From Candidatus Kapaibacterium sp. (lineage in GTDB: Bacteria > Bacteroidota > Ignavibacteria > Kapaibacteriales > UBA4661): DNA of 64,000 nucleotides. Position 1 is the first letter of the stretch. The number at the start of each line of letters is the position of its first letter. Below the pieces are notes generated by a model, which was given only the letters and a program-made list of their open reading frames with translations, ran no database searches and had not been told where the DNA came from. Made by a program: the position numbers and the translations under genes. Of the stretch, positions 48,408 to 61,531 are shown piece after piece. Location: assembly GCA_025455065.1 (NCBI GenBank), contig JALONG010000013.1, positions 1 through 64,000 of the forward strand. Direction: 5' to 3'.

Positions 48408-48470
48408 TTGATATTCGAGATTCTCGCCGCAACAGCACTTGCCTCACAAGCCCCTCACTTGCTCGGCAGT

Positions 48471-51400
48471 ATGACACAACGTAGCATATACTTATCGAAA
48501 CGCCGAAAGCAGTACAAGGTACAATGCCGACTACTGCTTTCGGCGTTTGTATGTGCGGGTGTATTCCTCCTCATACTGATTGGCGGAACAATCCCAAGTG
48601 CCGCACAAAATCTGCTTTTTGAGCATTTTTCCTACGAACAGGGACTTTCCGAATCCAACGTTACGGCGATTCTTCAAGACCGCTACGGCTTTTTGTGGGT
48701 TGGTACAAGCAACGGCTTGAACCGCTACGATGGCTACAAAATGACGACGTTTCGGAATGACCCTAACGATTCTTCCAGCCTGAGCAGTAACGTCATTACG
48801 GCGCTGTACGAAGACGAAAGCGGCGCTCTTTGGGTGGGAACGCAAGACGGTTTGAACCGCCTCGACCACACAACAGGGCGCTTTTCCGCTTACAAAAACA
48901 CCCCCGACAATACAAACTCTCTCAGCAATAATTTCATTCGTGCTTTGGCAGAAGTTCCGCGTGGTGTGCTGTGGGTAGCAACGAAGCGGGGTTTGAACCG
49001 TTTTGACATGGAGCGCAATGAATGGAAGTTCTACAAAGCCGATAAAAAGGGGCGTGGCAAGGGACCGAGCGACAACGACATCACGGCAATGCTTGTCGAA
49101 CCAAGTAACCGTGCGCATCTCTGGCTTGCAGCACGAGGTGGCGGATTAAATTTGCTGCATATTTCCAAAGGTATTTTCAAGGTTTTTAAGCCCGAAGAAT
49201 TTGAAGAATATGATGAAATGAACATTGGTGTGAGTGCCATGACCTTCGATGCCGCAAATACACTCTGGCTCGCAACCCGCGACAATTCGCTGTGGCGTTT
49301 TTTTCCCGAAGAAAAACGCTTTTCACGTGTTCCCGATATTCTGCCGTCGGAGCAAGCATTTTCCCAGTATTTGACGACCATTACCCCGCAACGTGCGATT
49401 CCCACTATTACGGTTCAATCACTTGCCATTGACAAACAAGGCACACTCTGGGCTGGAGCGCGTGAGGGCTTGTTTTCGCGCCCGACGACAAACGATGACG
49501 TTGCGTGGGAAGCCCATAAAAACAACCCCAATGACGCACAGAGCCTCAGCGACAACAATGTCACGGTCATGCTGCAAGACCACGCAGGCGTGATGTGGTT
49601 TGGGACGCAGGAAGGCGGCTTGAACAAATTCGTTCCGCAAACTGCTGCTTTTCGCAACGTAAAATACAGCCCCGACACGAAAGCATTACCGAATCCGCTT
49701 GTGAATGCCATTGCCCGCAAAGCAAGCGGTGAAGAGTGGTTCGGAACACAAAATGGCGCAGTGATATACCAAAACGGCTTGCCCAAGCGCGTCGTTGCCA
49801 ATGGTTACGTCGTGACGGCAATTCTGCACGACAAACAAGGGAATACATGGCTCGGAACGGAAAGCGGTGTGTTGGAATTTGATGCCGGCGGCTTGCCAAA
49901 GCGCTTGCAGGGCGGTCTTCAGGAGATGAACGGACTAAGCGACAATATCATCACGGCACTTGCGGAGGACAAAGCGGGGAATATCTGGATTGGCACACAG
50001 GGTGACGGCGTAAGCCTCTTCAATCCTCGCTCCGGCATACTTCGCCGTTTTTTTTCGGATGCAGACGACACCACGAGTTTGAGCGAAAATTTTGTGTTTT
50101 CGATAACGGTGAGCAGAACCGGCACAGTCTGGATTGGCACAAATAGTGGTTTGAACAGGTTTGATGCGGCTAAGGAGCAGTTCCGTCGCATCACGCGCAC
50201 GACCAAAAGCGGTTTCCCCGATGTGCCGATTTTGGCGCTGTACGAAGACGCTGAGGGCGCACTGTGGCTTGGGACGCTGGGCGGTGGGCTTTTTCGCTAT
50301 AATCCTGCAAGTGAAGCCGTTCAGCGATTTAGTAAAAAAGATAAACTTCCCAGCGAGACAATTTTCGGAATTTTGAGTGACAATGCCGGTAAAATTTGGC
50401 TGAGTACAAGTCGTGGACTTGCTGCATTGCGCTTGAACAAGAACGCCGGAGGAGGAACAATTCAGGCGGTACGCAGCTACGGCGCTTCCGACGGTTTGCA
50501 AAGCAGCACCTTCCGCAAAGGCGCATATTTCCGAGCCGCAGACGGCATGATGATGTTTGGTTTGGGAACAGGTTTTGTGCGCTTTCACCCCGATTCTTTG
50601 CACGACAATCGCCTCGCACCGCCGATTGCCGTTACGCGATTCCAGCTATTTAATGATGATGGAATTAACGATAATTTGCTGTTGCAGCAGCAAACACAGT
50701 TTGAAATCAACTATAATGACAATTTCGAGTTGGAATATGCCGCCTTGGATTTCACCAATCCTGAGCGTAACCAATACGCACACCGCATGGAGGGCTTTAC
50801 CAAAGATTGGCTCTACACCGACCAAGGGCGAAAAATTACGGGAACAAATTTAGACCCGGGAACATACACGCTCTACATCAAAGCCGCAAACAGCGATGGA
50901 ATCTGGTCGGAAACGCCGTTGGAGCTGACAATCGTTGTGCGTCCGCCGTGGTGGGGAACGTGGTGGTTTCGCCTGATTTTTGTTGCCGTTGGAATAGGCT
51001 GTATCGTGCTTGCATACCGCTTGCGTGTGCGAAGTATGGTTATGATGAACTCACGCCTCCAAACGCTGGTGGAAGCCCGCACGAAAGAAATCTCGGAACA
51101 GGCATCATTGCTGGAAGAGCAGGCATCGGAAATTCAAATGGCAAACGGAGCGCTGCAAGAGAAAAATGTCGAATTGGAGCGGGTTTTGCACGTGAGCGAA
51201 ATGGCGCGGCAGGAATTGGAACACGCCTACAAACTTCTCGACAGCGAAAACACCCGCAAAACGCAGGAATTAAGCGAGGCGCGGGCATTTCAACTTTCGA
51301 TGCTTCCCCGCAATGTACCGCAAATACAGGGCTTGGACGTGGCATTTGCACTTCGCACGGCAACGGAAGTCGGGGGCGATTATTACGATTACGTCCAAAC

Positions 51401-52016
51401 CGCAGAAGGCGCATTAACGCTTGCCATTGGCGATGCGACGGGGCATGGTGTTCGGGCGGGAATGTTGGTATCGCTCGTCAAAAGCAGCTTCCATGCGCTT
51501 GTCCACGATTATCCGCTTTCGGAAACAGTTGCGATGATTTCGCAGACGATAAAGCAAATGCGCTTGCAGCGAATGTTTATGTGCTTTTCGGTGCTGCATT
51601 TTCGGCGTTTGGCAGAAGAGCAATCTTCCAAAAGCGCATGGGCGCTGGATGTTGCAGGAGCCGGTATGCCGCCGATGATGATTTACCGCGCTGCCACAGG
51701 CACGATGGAGTTTTTCCGCACACAAGGAATAGTGTTGGGCGCAATGGAGAATGCTTCCTATCCCGCATCAACGCTGCATTTAGCGCATGGCGACCGTTTG
51801 TTAATCATGTCCGACGGCATCATTGAGCTTTTTAACTCTGCGGGAGAAGAACTCGGCACAGAGCGCGTAAAATCGTGCTTTCAGCGCCATTGTACCGGCA
51901 CCGAATCGCTTTCCGCCGATGAATTGCTTGGTGAACTGCATCGGCTTATTGATGCGTGGCTGGACGGCGAAGCGCCGAATGATGATATTGCGCTGGTGGT
52001 AGTGCGGGTGGTCTAA
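48471..52016 (+). CDS. Two-component-type propeller protein with SpoIIE (PP2C) phosphatase output
   Basis: About 1181 residues from the ATG at 48471; a TTG at 48408 is less likely. A basic stretch and a hydrophobic segment (LLLSAFVCAGVFLLILIGG) act as signal/anchor. About 13 Reg_prop blades follow (for example ITALYEDESGALWVGTQDGLNRLD), enough for two seven-bladed propellers, then a Y_Y_Y domain (LEYAALDFTNPERNQYAHRMEGFTKDW), a transmembrane helix (WWFRLIFVAVGIGCIVLAYRL), a coiled coil and a SpoIIE serine phosphatase domain with metal-binding Asp residues in GGDYYDY, GDATGHG, MSDGI and NDDIAL. Unlike HTCS regulators it has no kinase or DNA-binding domain. It probably turns a periplasmic signal into dephosphorylation of an anti-sigma antagonist. 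Confidence 0.92.
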   Translation: MTQRSIYLSKRRKQYKVQCRLLLSAFVCAGVFLLILIGGTIPSAAQNLLFEHFSYEQGLSESNVTAILQDRYGFLWVGTSNGLNRYDGYKMTTFRNDPNDSSSLSSNVITALYEDESGALWVGTQDGLNRLDHTTGRFSAYKNTPDNTNSLSNNFIRALAEVPRGVLWVATKRGLNRFDMERNEWKFYKADKKGRGKGPSDNDITAMLVEPSNRAHLWLAARGGGLNLLHISKGIFKVFKPEEFEEYDEMNIGVSAMTFDAANTLWLATRDNSLWRFFPEEKRFSRVPDILPSEQAFSQYLTTITPQRAIPTITVQSLAIDKQGTLWAGAREGLFSRPTTNDDVAWEAHKNNPNDAQSLSDNNVTVMLQDHAGVMWFGTQEGGLNKFVPQTAAFRNVKYSPDTKALPNPLVNAIARKASGEEWFGTQNGAVIYQNGLPKRVVANGYVVTAILHDKQGNTWLGTESGVLEFDAGGLPKRLQGGLQEMNGLSDNIITALAEDKAGNIWIGTQGDGVSLFNPRSGILRRFFSDADDTTSLSENFVFSITVSRTGTVWIGTNSGLNRFDAAKEQFRRITRTTKSGFPDVPILALYEDAEGALWLGTLGGGLFRYNPASEAVQRFSKKDKLPSETIFGILSDNAGKIWLSTSRGLAALRLNKNAGGGTIQAVRSYGASDGLQSSTFRKGAYFRAADGMMMFGLGTGFVRFHPDSLHDNRLAPPIAVTRFQLFNDDGINDNLLLQQQTQFEINYNDNFELEYAALDFTNPERNQYAHRMEGFTKDWLYTDQGRKITGTNLDPGTYTLYIKAANSDGIWSETPLELTIVVRPPWWGTWWFRLIFVAVGIGCIVLAYRLRVRSMVMMNSRLQTLVEARTKEISEQASLLEEQASEIQMANGALQEKNVELERVLHVSEMARQELEHAYKLLDSENTRKTQELSEARAFQLSMLPRNVPQIQGLDVAFALRTATEVGGDYYDYVQTAEGALTLAIGDATGHGVRAGMLVSLVKSSFHALVHDYPLSETVAMISQTIKQMRLQRMFMCFSVLHFRRLAEEQSSKSAWALDVAGAGMPPMMIYRAATGTMEFFRTQGIVLGAMENASYPASTLHLAHGDRLLIMSDGIIELFNSAGEELGTERVKSCFQRHCTGTESLSADELLGELHRLIDAWLDGEAPNDDIALVVVRVV
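48498..48548 (+). promoter_or_regulatory. Perfect 17-bp hairpin inside the signal-peptide codons of the SpoIIE-propeller gene
   Basis: AAACGCCGAAAGCAGTA (48498-48514) is exactly complementary to TACTGCTTTCGGCGTTT (48532-48548), with a 17-nt loop. It starts 27 nt after the ATG at 48471. It could be the terminator or attenuator of the upstream GIN gene, overlapping the coding start, or control translation of the phosphatase. No downstream in-frame ATG would rescue a normal signal peptide. Confidence 0.6.
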
Positions 52017-56114: not shown

Positions 56115-57881
56115 ATGCGTTCAATATGTACTTTTTTCGTTGTGCTGCTGCTCTTCACGGTGGCACCTGCCTTGCTTTCGGCATTTCCGGGTGGTTTTGT
56201 CGGTGTAACCGTCGTGGGTTGTAATTGTCATGGTCCGGCAAATTCCGCGACGACGATTTCCATCCCGGGACGCACAAGCCCGATTACCGCTCGCACCGGA
56301 GAGACACTTTCGCTTTCGCTCATGGTTGCCCACGCAAGCCAGAGTGCCGCCGGAATGAATATCGCGGTGGTTAATAGCGCCGGAACAAATGCCGGAACGC
56401 TGATTGCAGGCGAAGGCTCGCAACTTCTTGGTGCAGAACTCACACACAGCACTCCACGCGGCATGAGTGGCGGCAGTGCAACATTCCCGTTTCAATGGAC
56501 AGCGCCTACCACTCCCGGCACATACACGCTTCGCGCTGTTGGTAATGCGGTAAACCGCGACGGCGGCTCAGGCGGCGATGCGTGGAACGCGCTTCCCGCC
56601 TTCACTATTACCGTCGAAGCACCTGTGGCAACGTTCACCGTTTCGGGAAGAATCTTGAATGCAAGCGGTGTTGCGGTTTCGGATGTGATTGTTACCGATG
56701 GCACACGCAGTGCAACAACCGACGCGCAGGGCAATTACACCTTGAGCGGCGTACCAAACGGAACGTACACACTCGTCGCAGCCCGCACCAATTGGACGTT
56801 TGCGCCGACAACGCTTGCGGTAACAGTCAATGGAGCGAATGTTACGGGGCAGAATTTTACGGGAACACGGCTTTGGGCAGTGCGTGGAACAATCCTGAAC
56901 CCAAGCGGTGTTGCGGTCTCGGATGTGATTGTTGCGGCAGGCTCTTCCACCGCCACGACCGACGCACAAGGCAATTACACGCTCTGGCTGGCAAACGGCT
57001 CCTACACTATTCGCGTAGCCCGCACCAACTGGACATTTTCACCCGAAACACGAGCCGTAACGGTAAACGGTGCTGACCTCGCAGCGCAAAACTTTACGGG
57101 AACGCGCCTGTGGGCAGTGCGAGGAACAATCCTGAATCCAAGCGGTGTTGCGGTTTCGGATGCGATTGTCGCAGCAGGCACTTCCACCGCCACAACCGAC
57201 GCACAGGGCAACTACACGCTCTGGCTGGCAAACGGCTCCTACACTATTCGCGTAGCTCGGACAAATTGGACGTTTTCACCCGAAACGCGAGTCGTAACGG
57301 TAAACGGTGCTGACCTCGCAGCGCAAAACTTTACGGGAACACGGCTTTGGGCGGTGCGTGGAACAATCCTGAACCCAAGTGGTGTTGCGGTTTCCGGGGT
57401 GTCGGTCAGTGCTGCTTCCGGCACAACGATTTCTTCCAGTGCCACGACCGACGCACAGGGCAACTACACGCTCTGGCTGGCAAACGGCACGTACATTCTC
57501 ACGCCAAGCCGCATGAGTTGGACGTTTACACCAGCGTCGCTTTCTGTAACGGTTGCGGGAGCAGATTTCCAAGCGGCACAAATCACAGGCAATTTGATGA
57601 GTTCCGTAGCGCTTACGTCCATGCTTCAAGCGCCGACGGTTTCACCGAACCCAAGTACAGGCATAACTACAATTTCATACACTACCTCCTCACACGGGCG
57701 CATCCGATATGAAGTGTATTCTTCATTAGGGGAGTTGGTGCGTTCTTTTTCTGAAGAGCGCCCGGCTGGGATGCAGCGCTACGCCTTGTTGCTAGAGGGA
57801 TTACCACAAGGCGCGTATTATTGCCGCATTGCTTCCGAACAAGGCATCATCGGCACAGCAGCGATACTCTTGCAGCCGTAA
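56115..57881 (+). CDS. T9SS-exported protein with CxCH motif and tandem 79-residue repeats
   Basis: 588 residues. Signal peptide ends near SAFPGG. Early in the mature protein lies VVGCNCHGPANS, a C-x-C-H motif like that at the start of choice-of-anchor-V-type proteins; it is not the CxxCH heme motif. A beta-sandwich follows to about residue 170 (SGGSATFPFQWTAPTTPGTYTLR). Then come four carboxypeptidase-regulatory-like/SpaA-type repeats of about 79 residues (WAVRGTILNPSGVAVSD ... DAQGNYTLWLANGSYTI), the middle ones nearly identical. The last ~80 residues (VSPNPSTGITTISYT ... LPQGAYYCRIASEQG) are a type A T9SS sorting domain. Probably a surface adhesin or stalk; function unknown. Followed by a strong terminator. 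Confidence 0.88.
   Translation: MRSICTFFVVLLLFTVAPALLSAFPGGFVGVTVVGCNCHGPANSATTISIPGRTSPITARTGETLSLSLMVAHASQSAAGMNIAVVNSAGTNAGTLIAGEGSQLLGAELTHSTPRGMSGGSATFPFQWTAPTTPGTYTLRAVGNAVNRDGGSGGDAWNALPAFTITVEAPVATFTVSGRILNASGVAVSDVIVTDGTRSATTDAQGNYTLSGVPNGTYTLVAARTNWTFAPTTLAVTVNGANVTGQNFTGTRLWAVRGTILNPSGVAVSDVIVAAGSSTATTDAQGNYTLWLANGSYTIRVARTNWTFSPETRAVTVNGADLAAQNFTGTRLWAVRGTILNPSGVAVSDAIVAAGTSTATTDAQGNYTLWLANGSYTIRVARTNWTFSPETRVVTVNGADLAAQNFTGTRLWAVRGTILNPSGVAVSGVSVSAASGTTISSSATTDAQGNYTLWLANGTYILTPSRMSWTFTPASLSVTVAGADFQAAQITGNLMSSVALTSMLQAPTVSPNPSTGITTISYTTSSHGRIRYEVYSSLGELVRSFSEERPAGMQRYALLLEGLPQGAYYCRIASEQGIIGTAAILLQP
56628..57590 (+). repeat. Four tandem repeats, period 237 bp, in the T9SS protein
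   Basis: Equivalent points fall at 56865, 57102 and 57339 (spacing exactly 237 bp, 79 codons), with a more diverged first copy from about 56628 and a slightly longer last one. The middle copies are close to identical in DNA, so they arose recently and copy number may vary. Confidence 0.85.
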
Positions 57882-58540: not shown

Positions 58541-61531
58541 TCACCGCGCAATAATCGCAAATTCCGTCCGGCGATTTTTCTGGCGGTCATCCTCCGTCTC
58601 ATTCGTTGCCACAGGCTGCGACATTCCGTAGCCCTTTGACCGCAAGCGCTCCGACTTCACGCCCCGCTCCACAAGCGCCTGTACGACGGCGGCGGCACGC
58701 AGTTCCGACAAGCGTTGATTAAATTCCTCGCCGCCGATATTGTCGGTGTGTCCGCGAATTTCGATTTTTGTGCGCGGCGCGTTCAGCATTGCTCCGGCGA
58801 TAGCATCCAGCATTGGTGCGGATTCGGGGCGAATTTCCGCTTTTTTGTAGTCGAAATAAATTTTGGTGGTGGAAAAGACCGTGTTCAGCGTGTCGAACAT
58901 ATTAAACGGCGATTTGTCTATCTCGAAAAATGCCGCTAACTCCTTGCCCGTCCTGCGTCGCCCGTTGCGGTCAAGCCCGTTTTTATCGAAACCAAAACGG
59001 TCGAAACCGTTTTTATTAAATCCGTTGCGGTTAAATCCATTGCGGTCGTAACCGTTACGGTCATAGCCATTGCCGTCAAAGCGGCTTCCCGACTTGTGTT
59101 TGCCGTTGCGGTCGAAGCCAAAACGGTTGAAGCCGTTTCGGTCAAAGCCGTCTTTATCAAAACCGTCTTCCGCAAACGAACCGCCTGAACGGTGCTTCCC
59201 GTCTCGGTTAAACCCGTTTCGGTCAAAACCGCTATTATCAAAACCGAGAATATTAAACCCTTTGTCGTCAAACGCGCCACCGCGCTTGTGCAAACCGTTG
59301 CGGTCAAAGCCGCTTCGATTATAGCCGTCCTTGTTGAAGCCGTTTTTGTCAAAACCATTGCGGTCGTAGCCGTTTTTGTCAAAGCCGTTTTTATCAAAGC
59401 CGTCCGTGCCGAACCGTGAGCCATTTTTCCCGTTGCCGTTTTTGTCTAAACCGTTTCTATCAAAGCCGTTTTTATCAAAACCCTGAGTATTGAAGCCGTT
59501 TCTATCGAAGCCGTTTTTGTCAAAACCGTTCATGTCGTAACCGTTACGGTCGAAGCGTGTTCCGTTTTGATTGTTGCCGTTTTTATCAAATCCGTAACGA
59601 TTCAAACCATTGCTATTAAAGCCGTTGCGGTCGAAGCCGTTGCCGTCAAACCCGTTTTTATCGTAACCGTTTTTGTCGAAGCCGTTGCCGTCAAAGCCTG
59701 TTCCGTTCTTGTGTTTGCCGTTTTTGTCGAACCCGTTTTTATCAAAGCCGCTTCCGTCGTAGCCGTTAGAAGCAAAGCCCGTACCGCCTGAGCCGTCAAA
59801 TCCCGAACCGTTGCGGTGGATCCCGCCGCGATTAAATCCGTTGGCATTGTAACCGTCAGCGCCGTACCCGCGCTTGTCGAAGCCGTTATTATCAAAGCGC
59901 GTTCCGTTTTTGTTAAAGCCGCTCAGGTCGAAGCCGTTGCCGTCAAACCCGTTTTTGTCGTACCCGTTGCGGTCGAAGCCGTTGCGGTCAAAACCATTGC
60001 TATTGAAGCCGTTTGCATCAAAGCCGTTGCGGTCGAAACCGTCGCGCCCGAAGCCGTTTTTGTCAAAGCCGTTGCGGTCGAAGCCATCGCGCCCGAAGCC
60101 ATTTTTATCGAAGCCGTTATTATTAAAACCGTTTCGGTCAAAACCATTTTTATCGAAACCGTTTTTATCGTAGCCGTCTTTATCAAAAGCGCTTGCTTTT
60201 GCGCCATTGCGGTCTTTGCCGTCACGCCCGAAGCCGCGTTTATTAAAGCCGTCTTTGCCGAAACCGTCCTTGTCGAAGCCGTTTTTATCAAACCCATTGC
60301 CGTCGAAGGCGCTTCCGTTCTTATGTTTGCCGTTTTTGTCAAAACCGTTTTTGTCAAAGCCGTCTTTACCGAAACCATTTGGGTCGAAACCGTCTTTGTC
60401 GAAGCCGTTGCGGTCAAAGCCGTTTATATCGAAGCCGTTGCTGTTAAAACCGTCAGCATCAAAGCCAAATTCACCGTCGCCACGCCCGTTTAAGGCAATT
60501 TTTACACGGCTTCGCCCAACGTAGGGCGTGGCGCTGTAACTGATTTTGTAGAAATTCCTCAAACTTTCGTAAATGTCCTTGAACACCGATTGAAACTCGC
60601 TTTTCGACCGCACTTTGTAAAACTTTCCTCCCGTCAAACTCGCCAACTCCTTCAACGTCGAATCATTCGTGTACCCAAAACCAACAGGAAATATCCGCAC
60701 GTTCTGCGCTTTTGCCAAACGGAATAACTCCGCATCCGTTGTCTTCGACGCATTGTCTTCGCCGTCGGTAAAGACCACCATTGCTCGGGGCGTACTCACA
60801 TTTGCCGTTGTCAGCTGCTCTATGGATGCCTTCATCCCATCATAGAGCGCCGTGTAAAGCCCATAACCGCTCAAATCCGTGTTCATCAGCGCAGAATCTA
60901 ATTGCCGCAAATCTGCTGTTAAACGCCGTTCTACGGTTACTTTTTTGTCGAACTTTTCAATCGTGATGCGGTCATTCGGGTATTTCATCTTCACAAACAT
61001 CCGCGCCGCTTCCAGCAAATACTGCACCGCTCCTGCCATAGAGCCGCCATGGTCAAGCGTGAGTGCCAGCGCGTAGGTGATAGAATCTTGGTCGCCGTAT
61101 TCGCGCACGGTGTAATCGGTTACTTTCACCGTATCGCCGCCGAGATACTGTGTGATGCCCGTCCAATAGCGCTTGTAAGTGCCTTCGCCTTTGTAGTAAG
61201 GGTCAGCCATGCCGGAGATGAAATTCCCCGAAGAGTCCAGCACACGAGCAAAAACACGGACTTCTTTGGGATAGTCTTCGGATTCGACTTTCCAAACATC
61301 AAGAATGAGACCGTCGGGGTCGGCTTGGGTGATAGGTTTTTTGCCTGTGATATAGAGCGGACGTTTTTCGTTGGAATCCGGCGCAGATTCGGTATTCAGC
61401 GCAAATTCTCGCGTGCGCGTACTACCGCAATCGGTGAGCAGGAGCGCGGAAGCAAGGAAAAAAGTCGTTGTACAAAGAAGCGAAAAGGAGCGCACAAACA
61501 CAGCAGCAATGCGCAAAAACGGGGTTTTCAT
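58541..61531 (-). CDS. VWA - GFDKN pentad-repeat - OmpA surface protein
   Basis: 996 residues. The N-terminus is an export signal ending in LLLTDCG, a possible but imperfect lipobox. Residues ~150-330 form a von Willebrand A domain with a MIDAS-like DHGGSM (Asp about residue 160; the usual third position Ser is Gly) and VVFTDGEDNAS. From about residue 355 to 858 lies an array of about 85 five-residue units with consensus G-F-D-K/R-N, broken at intervals by seven-residue units of the GSxFDGN type. The last ~110 residues are a good OmpA-like peptidoglycan-binding domain (IYFDYKKAEIRPESAPMLD, IRGHTDNIGGEEFNQRLSELRA, GYGMSQPVATNETEDDRQKNRRTEF). Inferred: anchored to peptidoglycan, with the repeat as a long stalk and the VWA as a binding head. 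I know of no described family with this middle. Confidence 0.88.
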   Translation of the reverse strand: MKTPFLRIAAVFVRSFSLLCTTTFFLASALLLTDCGSTRTREFALNTESAPDSNEKRPLYITGKKPITQADPDGLILDVWKVESEDYPKEVRVFARVLDSSGNFISGMADPYYKGEGTYKRYWTGITQYLGGDTVKVTDYTVREYGDQDSITYALALTLDHGGSMAGAVQYLLEAARMFVKMKYPNDRITIEKFDKKVTVERRLTADLRQLDSALMNTDLSGYGLYTALYDGMKASIEQLTTANVSTPRAMVVFTDGEDNASKTTDAELFRLAKAQNVRIFPVGFGYTNDSTLKELASLTGGKFYKVRSKSEFQSVFKDIYESLRNFYKISYSATPYVGRSRVKIALNGRGDGEFGFDADGFNSNGFDINGFDRNGFDKDGFDPNGFGKDGFDKNGFDKNGKHKNGSAFDGNGFDKNGFDKDGFGKDGFNKRGFGRDGKDRNGAKASAFDKDGYDKNGFDKNGFDRNGFNNNGFDKNGFGRDGFDRNGFDKNGFGRDGFDRNGFDANGFNSNGFDRNGFDRNGYDKNGFDGNGFDLSGFNKNGTRFDNNGFDKRGYGADGYNANGFNRGGIHRNGSGFDGSGGTGFASNGYDGSGFDKNGFDKNGKHKNGTGFDGNGFDKNGYDKNGFDGNGFDRNGFNSNGLNRYGFDKNGNNQNGTRFDRNGYDMNGFDKNGFDRNGFNTQGFDKNGFDRNGLDKNGNGKNGSRFGTDGFDKNGFDKNGYDRNGFDKNGFNKDGYNRSGFDRNGLHKRGGAFDDKGFNILGFDNSGFDRNGFNRDGKHRSGGSFAEDGFDKDGFDRNGFNRFGFDRNGKHKSGSRFDGNGYDRNGYDRNGFNRNGFNKNGFDRFGFDKNGLDRNGRRRTGKELAAFFEIDKSPFNMFDTLNTVFSTTKIYFDYKKAEIRPESAPMLDAIAGAMLNAPRTKIEIRGHTDNIGGEEFNQRLSELRAAAVVQALVERGVKSERLRSKGYGMSQPVATNETEDDRQKNRRTEFAIIAR
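58958..60470 (-). repeat. 15-bp-period minisatellite encoding the GFDKN array
   Basis: About 1.5 kb of 15-bp units, with 21-bp units at intervals. The protein blocks hold, in N-to-C order, about 10, 6, 18, 5, 4, 8, 8, 8, 5, 5 and 8 pentads, separated by heptad-like units; the last pentad before most breaks is basic (GKHKN, GLHKR, GKHKS). Because 15 is a multiple of three, other frames also stay open across it, giving long artefactual ORFs. Individual units differ in codon use, so the array is older than a fresh slippage expansion, but length changes remain likely. Confidence 0.9.

Follow-up and report, generated by a model that had tools for sequence, protein, structure and literature searches.

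A pentad-repeat spacer between the VWA and OmpA domains of a predicted envelope-tether lipoprotein of Candidatus Kapaibacterium

The 30-bp intragenic repeats of Legionella dotG, present in 18 and 7 copies (PMC2639597), encode a part of the type IVB secretion protein DotG/IcmE that is not covered by the 2021 models of the core complex, which include DotG residues 791-824 and the dome (PMC8486379). In the pentapeptide repeat proteins, the chain forms a quadrilateral helix in which the partners are 20 residues apart (PMC8145042), and in the PorE-type outer-membrane lipoproteins, the OmpA domain binds peptidoglycan (PMC7192894). Here we describe a protein of Candidatus Kapaibacterium sp. that resembles each of these systems in part.

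The window (64,000 nucleotides of contig JALONG010000013.1, assembly GCA_025455065.1) contains a single open reading frame at positions 58541-61531 of the minus strand, which encodes a protein of 996 amino acids consisting of a lipoprotein-type N-terminus, a VWA domain, a pentad array and an OmpA domain, in this order (Table 1). Both end domains score above the curated Pfam cut-offs (45.5 bits vs 23.8 for VWA, PF00092; 80.9 bits vs 27.2 for OmpA, PF00691); the solved relatives of the OmpA domain include YiaD (2k1s, E 1.8e-18), and the VWA fold of the AlphaFold2 (AF2) model aligns best with 4wfq (Z 24.4, rmsd 1.9, 177 aligned residues). The order of the parts, which an earlier note on this DNA had read from the letters, is thus confirmed by the translation and by Pfam, and the peptidoglycan-binding end claimed there agrees with the PF00691 match; by analogy with this family, the C-terminus would bind peptidoglycan. 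Elsewhere in the window, a protein encoded at 56115-57881 has four CarboxypepD_reg-type repeats (237-bp repeats in the DNA) and a Por secretion tail, which suggests that the organism has a type IX secretion system. At 48408-52016, a two-component-regulator propeller, a Y_Y_Y domain and a SpoIIE phosphatase are fused in one protein.

Table 1. Features of the VWA-OmpA protein (positions in the window; residues of the protein)
Feature	Positions	Strand	Basis
Predicted lipid anchor: signal peptide and lipobox to Cys35 (LLTDC|GSTRTR)	61427..61531	-	sequence
VWA domain, residues 159-318	60578..61057	-	PF00092, E 1.2e-11; AF2 fold
Array of ~100 [FY]-[DN]-x-[ND]-G pentads with 7-residue break units, residues 356-875	58907..60466	-	
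Three 47-residue break intervals, residues 612-752	59276..59698	-	breaks at 611, 658, 705, 752
OmpA-like peptidoglycan-binding domain, residues 892-987	58571..58858	-	PF00691, E 9.3e-23; solved relatives

Altogether 98 pentads with the consensus [FY]-[DN]-[KR]-[ND]-G were recognized between residues 357 and 875, approximately, a stretch of about 520 residues; the glycine is present in 97 of the 98, F/Y at the first position in 79, D/N at the second in 75, K/R at the third in 68 and N/D at the fourth in 79. The array is interrupted by nine breaks (residues 407-816), each a pentad extended by two residues ([K/L/N]-[H/N]-[K/R]-[N/S]-G-[S/T]-x) and followed by F-D, at intervals of 137, 32, 35, 47, 47, 47, 32 and 32 residues. 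The pentad array of about 500 residues with heptad breaks, as described in the earlier note, is therefore real, and so are the 47-residue intervals, but these account for three of the eight and are local, and they do not amount to a general superhelical period. Neither Pfam nor NCBIfam includes a model that covers the repeat, in agreement with the note, and the literature search retrieved no paper on it. The copies of the tandem repeat in the array match at only 62-84% in the DNA, which argues against recent slippage expansion and against an assembly artefact.

The array occurs once in the genome of the window and was found in three other genomes of the genus: in G004, as a full-length protein with 75% identity to that of the window (L010); in G003, split over two contigs (L011 and a second contig); and in G002, as the C-terminal two thirds (L012), the contig starting inside the gene so that the N-terminal half is missing. 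Homologues with the same VWA and OmpA flanks thus exist beyond the window, and in these orthologues the length, the order and the layout of the breaks are retained. The arrays align end to end with few indels, one of which is a single pentad; L010 and L012 have break intervals of 142 or 137, 32, 32, 47, 47, 47, 32 and 32, and this layout persists even though array identity between species is 69%. We also considered the possibility that the intervals are multiples of three pentads, which is mostly true in the genus (6, 9 or 27 pentads) but fails outside it. Because the synonymous distances of the array to the window are saturated, G004 and G002 are the only informative pair, for which dS is 0.35, dN 0.018 and dN/dS 0.052, close to the value of 0.09 for the OmpA domain; judged by these rates, the array is under purifying selection and is not neutral filler.

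The protein as such was matched in all 61 genomes of the genus, family and order that were searched, and the copies examined from other families (for example, L015, L016 and L019) each consist of VWA and OmpA domains in one open reading frame of ~480-600 residues, with no pentads. These pentad-free lipoproteins of the same order share the N-terminal cysteine, the DxGxS motif of the VWA domain and the OmpA domain with the protein of the window, but a short variable linker, or none, connects their domains; the VWA-OmpA scaffold is ordinary for the order, and the pentad spacer is what is unusual. Within the family, the junction holds pentads in four species, other Gly/Asn-rich sequence in four and a short linker in one: G005 and G006 have GSGNDGSGNKQ repeats, G009 has both GDGRNT and GNGNGS repeats and G008 has NGNGN, the contig ending within the junction in all four; the linker of G007 is ~50 residues long. 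A profile search of the 61 relatives found the array in the four members of the genus only, apart from a match in G024 (E 1.3e-14) that was set aside because no open reading frame there has five or more pentads; when 395 genomes sampled from the phylum were searched, array matches were likewise limited to the genus. Both end domains stay the same, and the position of the spacer is conserved while its content has been exchanged between species.

The earlier note knew of no named repeat family with this unit, yet the repeat is not unique to the genus. The search for pentads across 84,980 species genomes yielded 42 loci, four from the genus of the window and ~38 outside it, the latter in Bacillota, Nitrosopumilus, Actinomycetota, Saccharibacteria and Proteobacteria and in mutually unrelated proteins. 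In the archaeon Nitrosopumilus, these are short proteins consisting of the array only; further carriers include a giant protein of Nocardia, Saccharibacteria and many copies in Candidatus Ichthyocystis. Several large proteins with arrays are encoded in Syntrophomonas genomes, with at least two architectures among them (L044, L049, L052, L054-L056, L058 and L061), namely secreted proteins of ~2000 residues and zinc-ribbon membrane proteins. In Candidatus Ichthyocystis hellenicum (L075, L078), clusters of eight largely pentad open reading frames occupy two regions of one chromosome. In rumen Clostridia, HelD-like helicases carry a long N-terminal pentad array (L068:7971-10664 and L069:7680-11831), which probably implies a cytosolic use of the repeat. 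A 70-kb contig classed as viral in IMG/VR (IMGVR_UViG_3300037010_003043, L100:1-8372) encodes at least five tandem paralogues and a fragment, proteins of ~370-450 residues that share their N-terminal domain and end in GYDKD arrays whose length varies. A repeat query against phage and plasmid records returned no match, which is uninformative because BLAST masks low-complexity queries, and the weak matches of distant arrays to PF25296 (Decapeptide) and PF05287 (PMG) fell below the cut-off and were taken as matches of composition.

What connects these arrays is the break. Histidine occupies the second position of the break pentad in 19 of 27 cases in the genus and in 31 of 40 outside it, compared with 0 of 235 and 26 of 2155 regular pentads, respectively (Fisher p 6e-23 in the genus and 8e-46 outside, both overstated because the pentads are not independent); typical forms are GKHKNGSGFD or GKHKNGTGFD in the window and its orthologues, GLHRTGSKYN in Ichthyocystis and GIHRDTGTKYD in Clostridium. 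Because the His-containing break is common to arrays within and outside the genus, comparison of these motifs makes common descent of the repeat a better explanation than convergence.

The repeat is also related to that of DotG/IcmE. Searched against PDB sequences, a profile built from the arrays of the genus alone matches residues 590-719 of Legionella IcmE/DotG with an E-value of 2.1e-11, compared with 0.056 for the reversed-sequence control, so that the score is only partly due to periodicity and composition; a profile built from every array except that of the DotG homologue matches residues 552-728 (E 6.9e-26). Two gammaproteobacterial DotG homologues (L041 and L050; NF033900, E 1.8e-101 and 4e-96) have GYDKD pentads at the place of the Legionella repeats. 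The DotG/IcmE repeats (PDB 7muc, 9ngw) share the five-residue register and the G-[FY] anchors with the array, and the DotG/IcmE pentads also sit between a membrane segment at the N-terminus and a VirB10-like end; the Legionella unit, however, is the 10-residue AGFSAxELKx, unlike the five-residue unit here. The protein of the window is not a member of the DotG/IcmE family: it ends in an OmpA domain and has no VirB10 domain, the neighboring genes scanned include no secretion-system gene, and no secretion system is implied.

The sequence [DN]-x-[DN]-G is classical for a type I turn with a G1 bulge. For a 194-residue fragment modeled with 34 aligned array pieces, AF2 gave a pLDDT of 91.5 and a pTM of 0.49, with almost no DSSP elements; in the full protein modeled with 10 orthologues, the array has a pLDDT of ~80 (pTM 0.34) and short EE pairs at a spacing of five residues. 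DSSP assigns different numbers of bridges in the two models, and both are to be read with their low pTM and the possible overconfidence of AF2 on repeats in mind. In the DSSP string of the model, a candidate partner at i,i+6 exists for each of the array's 114 bridge residues; most of these pairs join F to D/N one pentad further on, and at the breaks F pairs with His. Our working model is that the array would be a chain of turns, each pairing with the next pentad. Foldseek found no solved match in the PDB for the array fragment, which is no proof of a new fold, and only three weak matches among viral models; the list for the full-length model is filled by the VWA domain and is uninformative on the array.

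The putative lipid anchor bears on the orientation of the protein. Cys35 is retained in every orthologue that has an N-terminus, and the lipoboxes of the orthologues are regular (LSAC, HGGC, LLSC, LNSC), that of the window reading LTDC, with an atypical Asp at -1. Because the N-terminus is predicted to be lipidated and the C-terminus to bind peptidoglycan, the VWA domain would lie at the membrane end with both ends of the protein held; from the established biology of lipoproteins and OmpA domains, this looks like a bridge from membrane to wall. The VWA domain itself has D160-H-G-G-S164 (LDHGGSM, that is, DxGxS), T227 and D256 at the MIDAS but, with Gly in place of the first Ser, does not have the complete DxSxS...T...D set, which is required for metal binding and not for the VWA fold. 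The DxGxS form is nearly invariant across the aligned orthologues (alignment A3), whereas a paralogue in the same genome (L108, contig C65) has the canonical DxSxS (LDHSPSM); judging by these motifs, metal binding by the VWA domain is doubtful, and the site is probably weak or absent. The same paralogue combines its VWA and OmpA domains with a long Lys/Ser-rich region upstream in the protein.

These observations count against the earlier note's own reading, a calcium-stiffened, peptidoglycan-anchored stalk that projects a ligand-binding VWA head. The OmpA and VWA domains are indeed present and the repeat is rich in Asp and Asn, but the conserved cysteine of the predicted lipobox would put the VWA domain at a lipid-anchored end, the metal site is not a standard one, and the array is charge-neutral (+0.01 per residue), unlike acidic calcium rolls, and matches no Pfam or NCBIfam profile of Ca-binding beta-roll, thrombospondin type 3 or EF-hand repeats. 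We consider this reading very improbable. A classical right-handed quadrilateral beta-helix with four pentads per coil, which would make the array a stiff rod of ~12 nm (26 coils of 20 residues, ~0.48 nm each), would account for the strict period of five residues, in which each pentad has one aromatic, and for the EE---EE--- pattern of the full-length model with its period of 5; like the array, the PF00805 proteins (Qnr, MfpA, HetL) repeat every five residues and have one bulky residue in each unit, and the DotG-type AGFSA/AELKD resemble their A(D/N)LXX consensus. The array nevertheless differs from this consensus, with Gly at -1 and Asn/Asp at -2 from the core residue, and does not match PF00805 at E-values up to 10; its predicted pairing is i,i+6 instead of between 20-residue coils (i,i+20 partners are available for 72 of the 114 bridge residues), and Foldseek found no solved chain for the array model. 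Such a helix is unlikely, although less so than the calcium stalk.

Somewhat better placed, but still improbable in our estimate, is a flexible, disordered low-complexity linker, its regularity resulting from replication slippage and composition, for which any Gly/Asn-rich sequence would do. The contents of the junction in sister species, including the 50-residue linker, and the one-pentad indels between species speak for it; the spacers of these species include Gly/Ser/Asn arrays that look disordered, which would fit a plain flexible linker as well. The low dN/dS of the array, the conservation of the break intervals despite the divergence of the array, the His-containing break common to archaeal and Clostridium arrays and the high local pLDDT speak against a linker of this kind.

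The explanation that we prefer, with a probability of about 0.5, is an outer-membrane lipoprotein tether in which the pentads are an ordered, turn-rich spacer that sets the distance between membrane and wall or its compliance. The lipidated N-terminal cysteine would be held in the outer membrane, with the VWA domain adjoining the membrane as a protein-interaction module and the OmpA domain gripping peptidoglycan at the C-terminus; the array, inserted at the junction of the two domains, would be ordered rather than random coil, each unit contributing a type I turn with a G1 bulge, one aromatic and local pairing, and would determine membrane-to-wall distance or compliance. The spacer is exchangeable but selected, and its pentads are one instance of a kind of repeat that many other, unrelated proteins also carry. 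An outer-membrane lipoprotein whose OmpA domain binds peptidoglycan, as proposed here, has its counterparts in T9SS PorE and other OmpA-domain periplasmic lipoproteins, although the match of the window protein to NF052230 covers the OmpA domain only and is far below the cut-off; we know of no pentad array in these lipoproteins. More tentatively, the pentad with its His-containing break of 7 or 8 residues might define a distinct, unnamed repeat family of Bacteria, Archaea and viruses, a turn-by-turn solenoid with no solved representative; envelope tethers, secreted giant proteins, DotG secretion channels and cytosolic helicases would all use it as a modular spacer.

In the organism of the window, an uncatalogued repeat from many phyla is joined to a familiar envelope-tether scaffold. 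Near relatives that keep both end domains and swap the spacer provide a natural experiment, and comparing them makes it possible to test which features govern outer-membrane-to-wall distance or elasticity. The repeat also offers a lead on the repeat region of DotG, for which the literature searched contained no description of function or fold, and the repeat family behind the spacer deserves a name and a structure.
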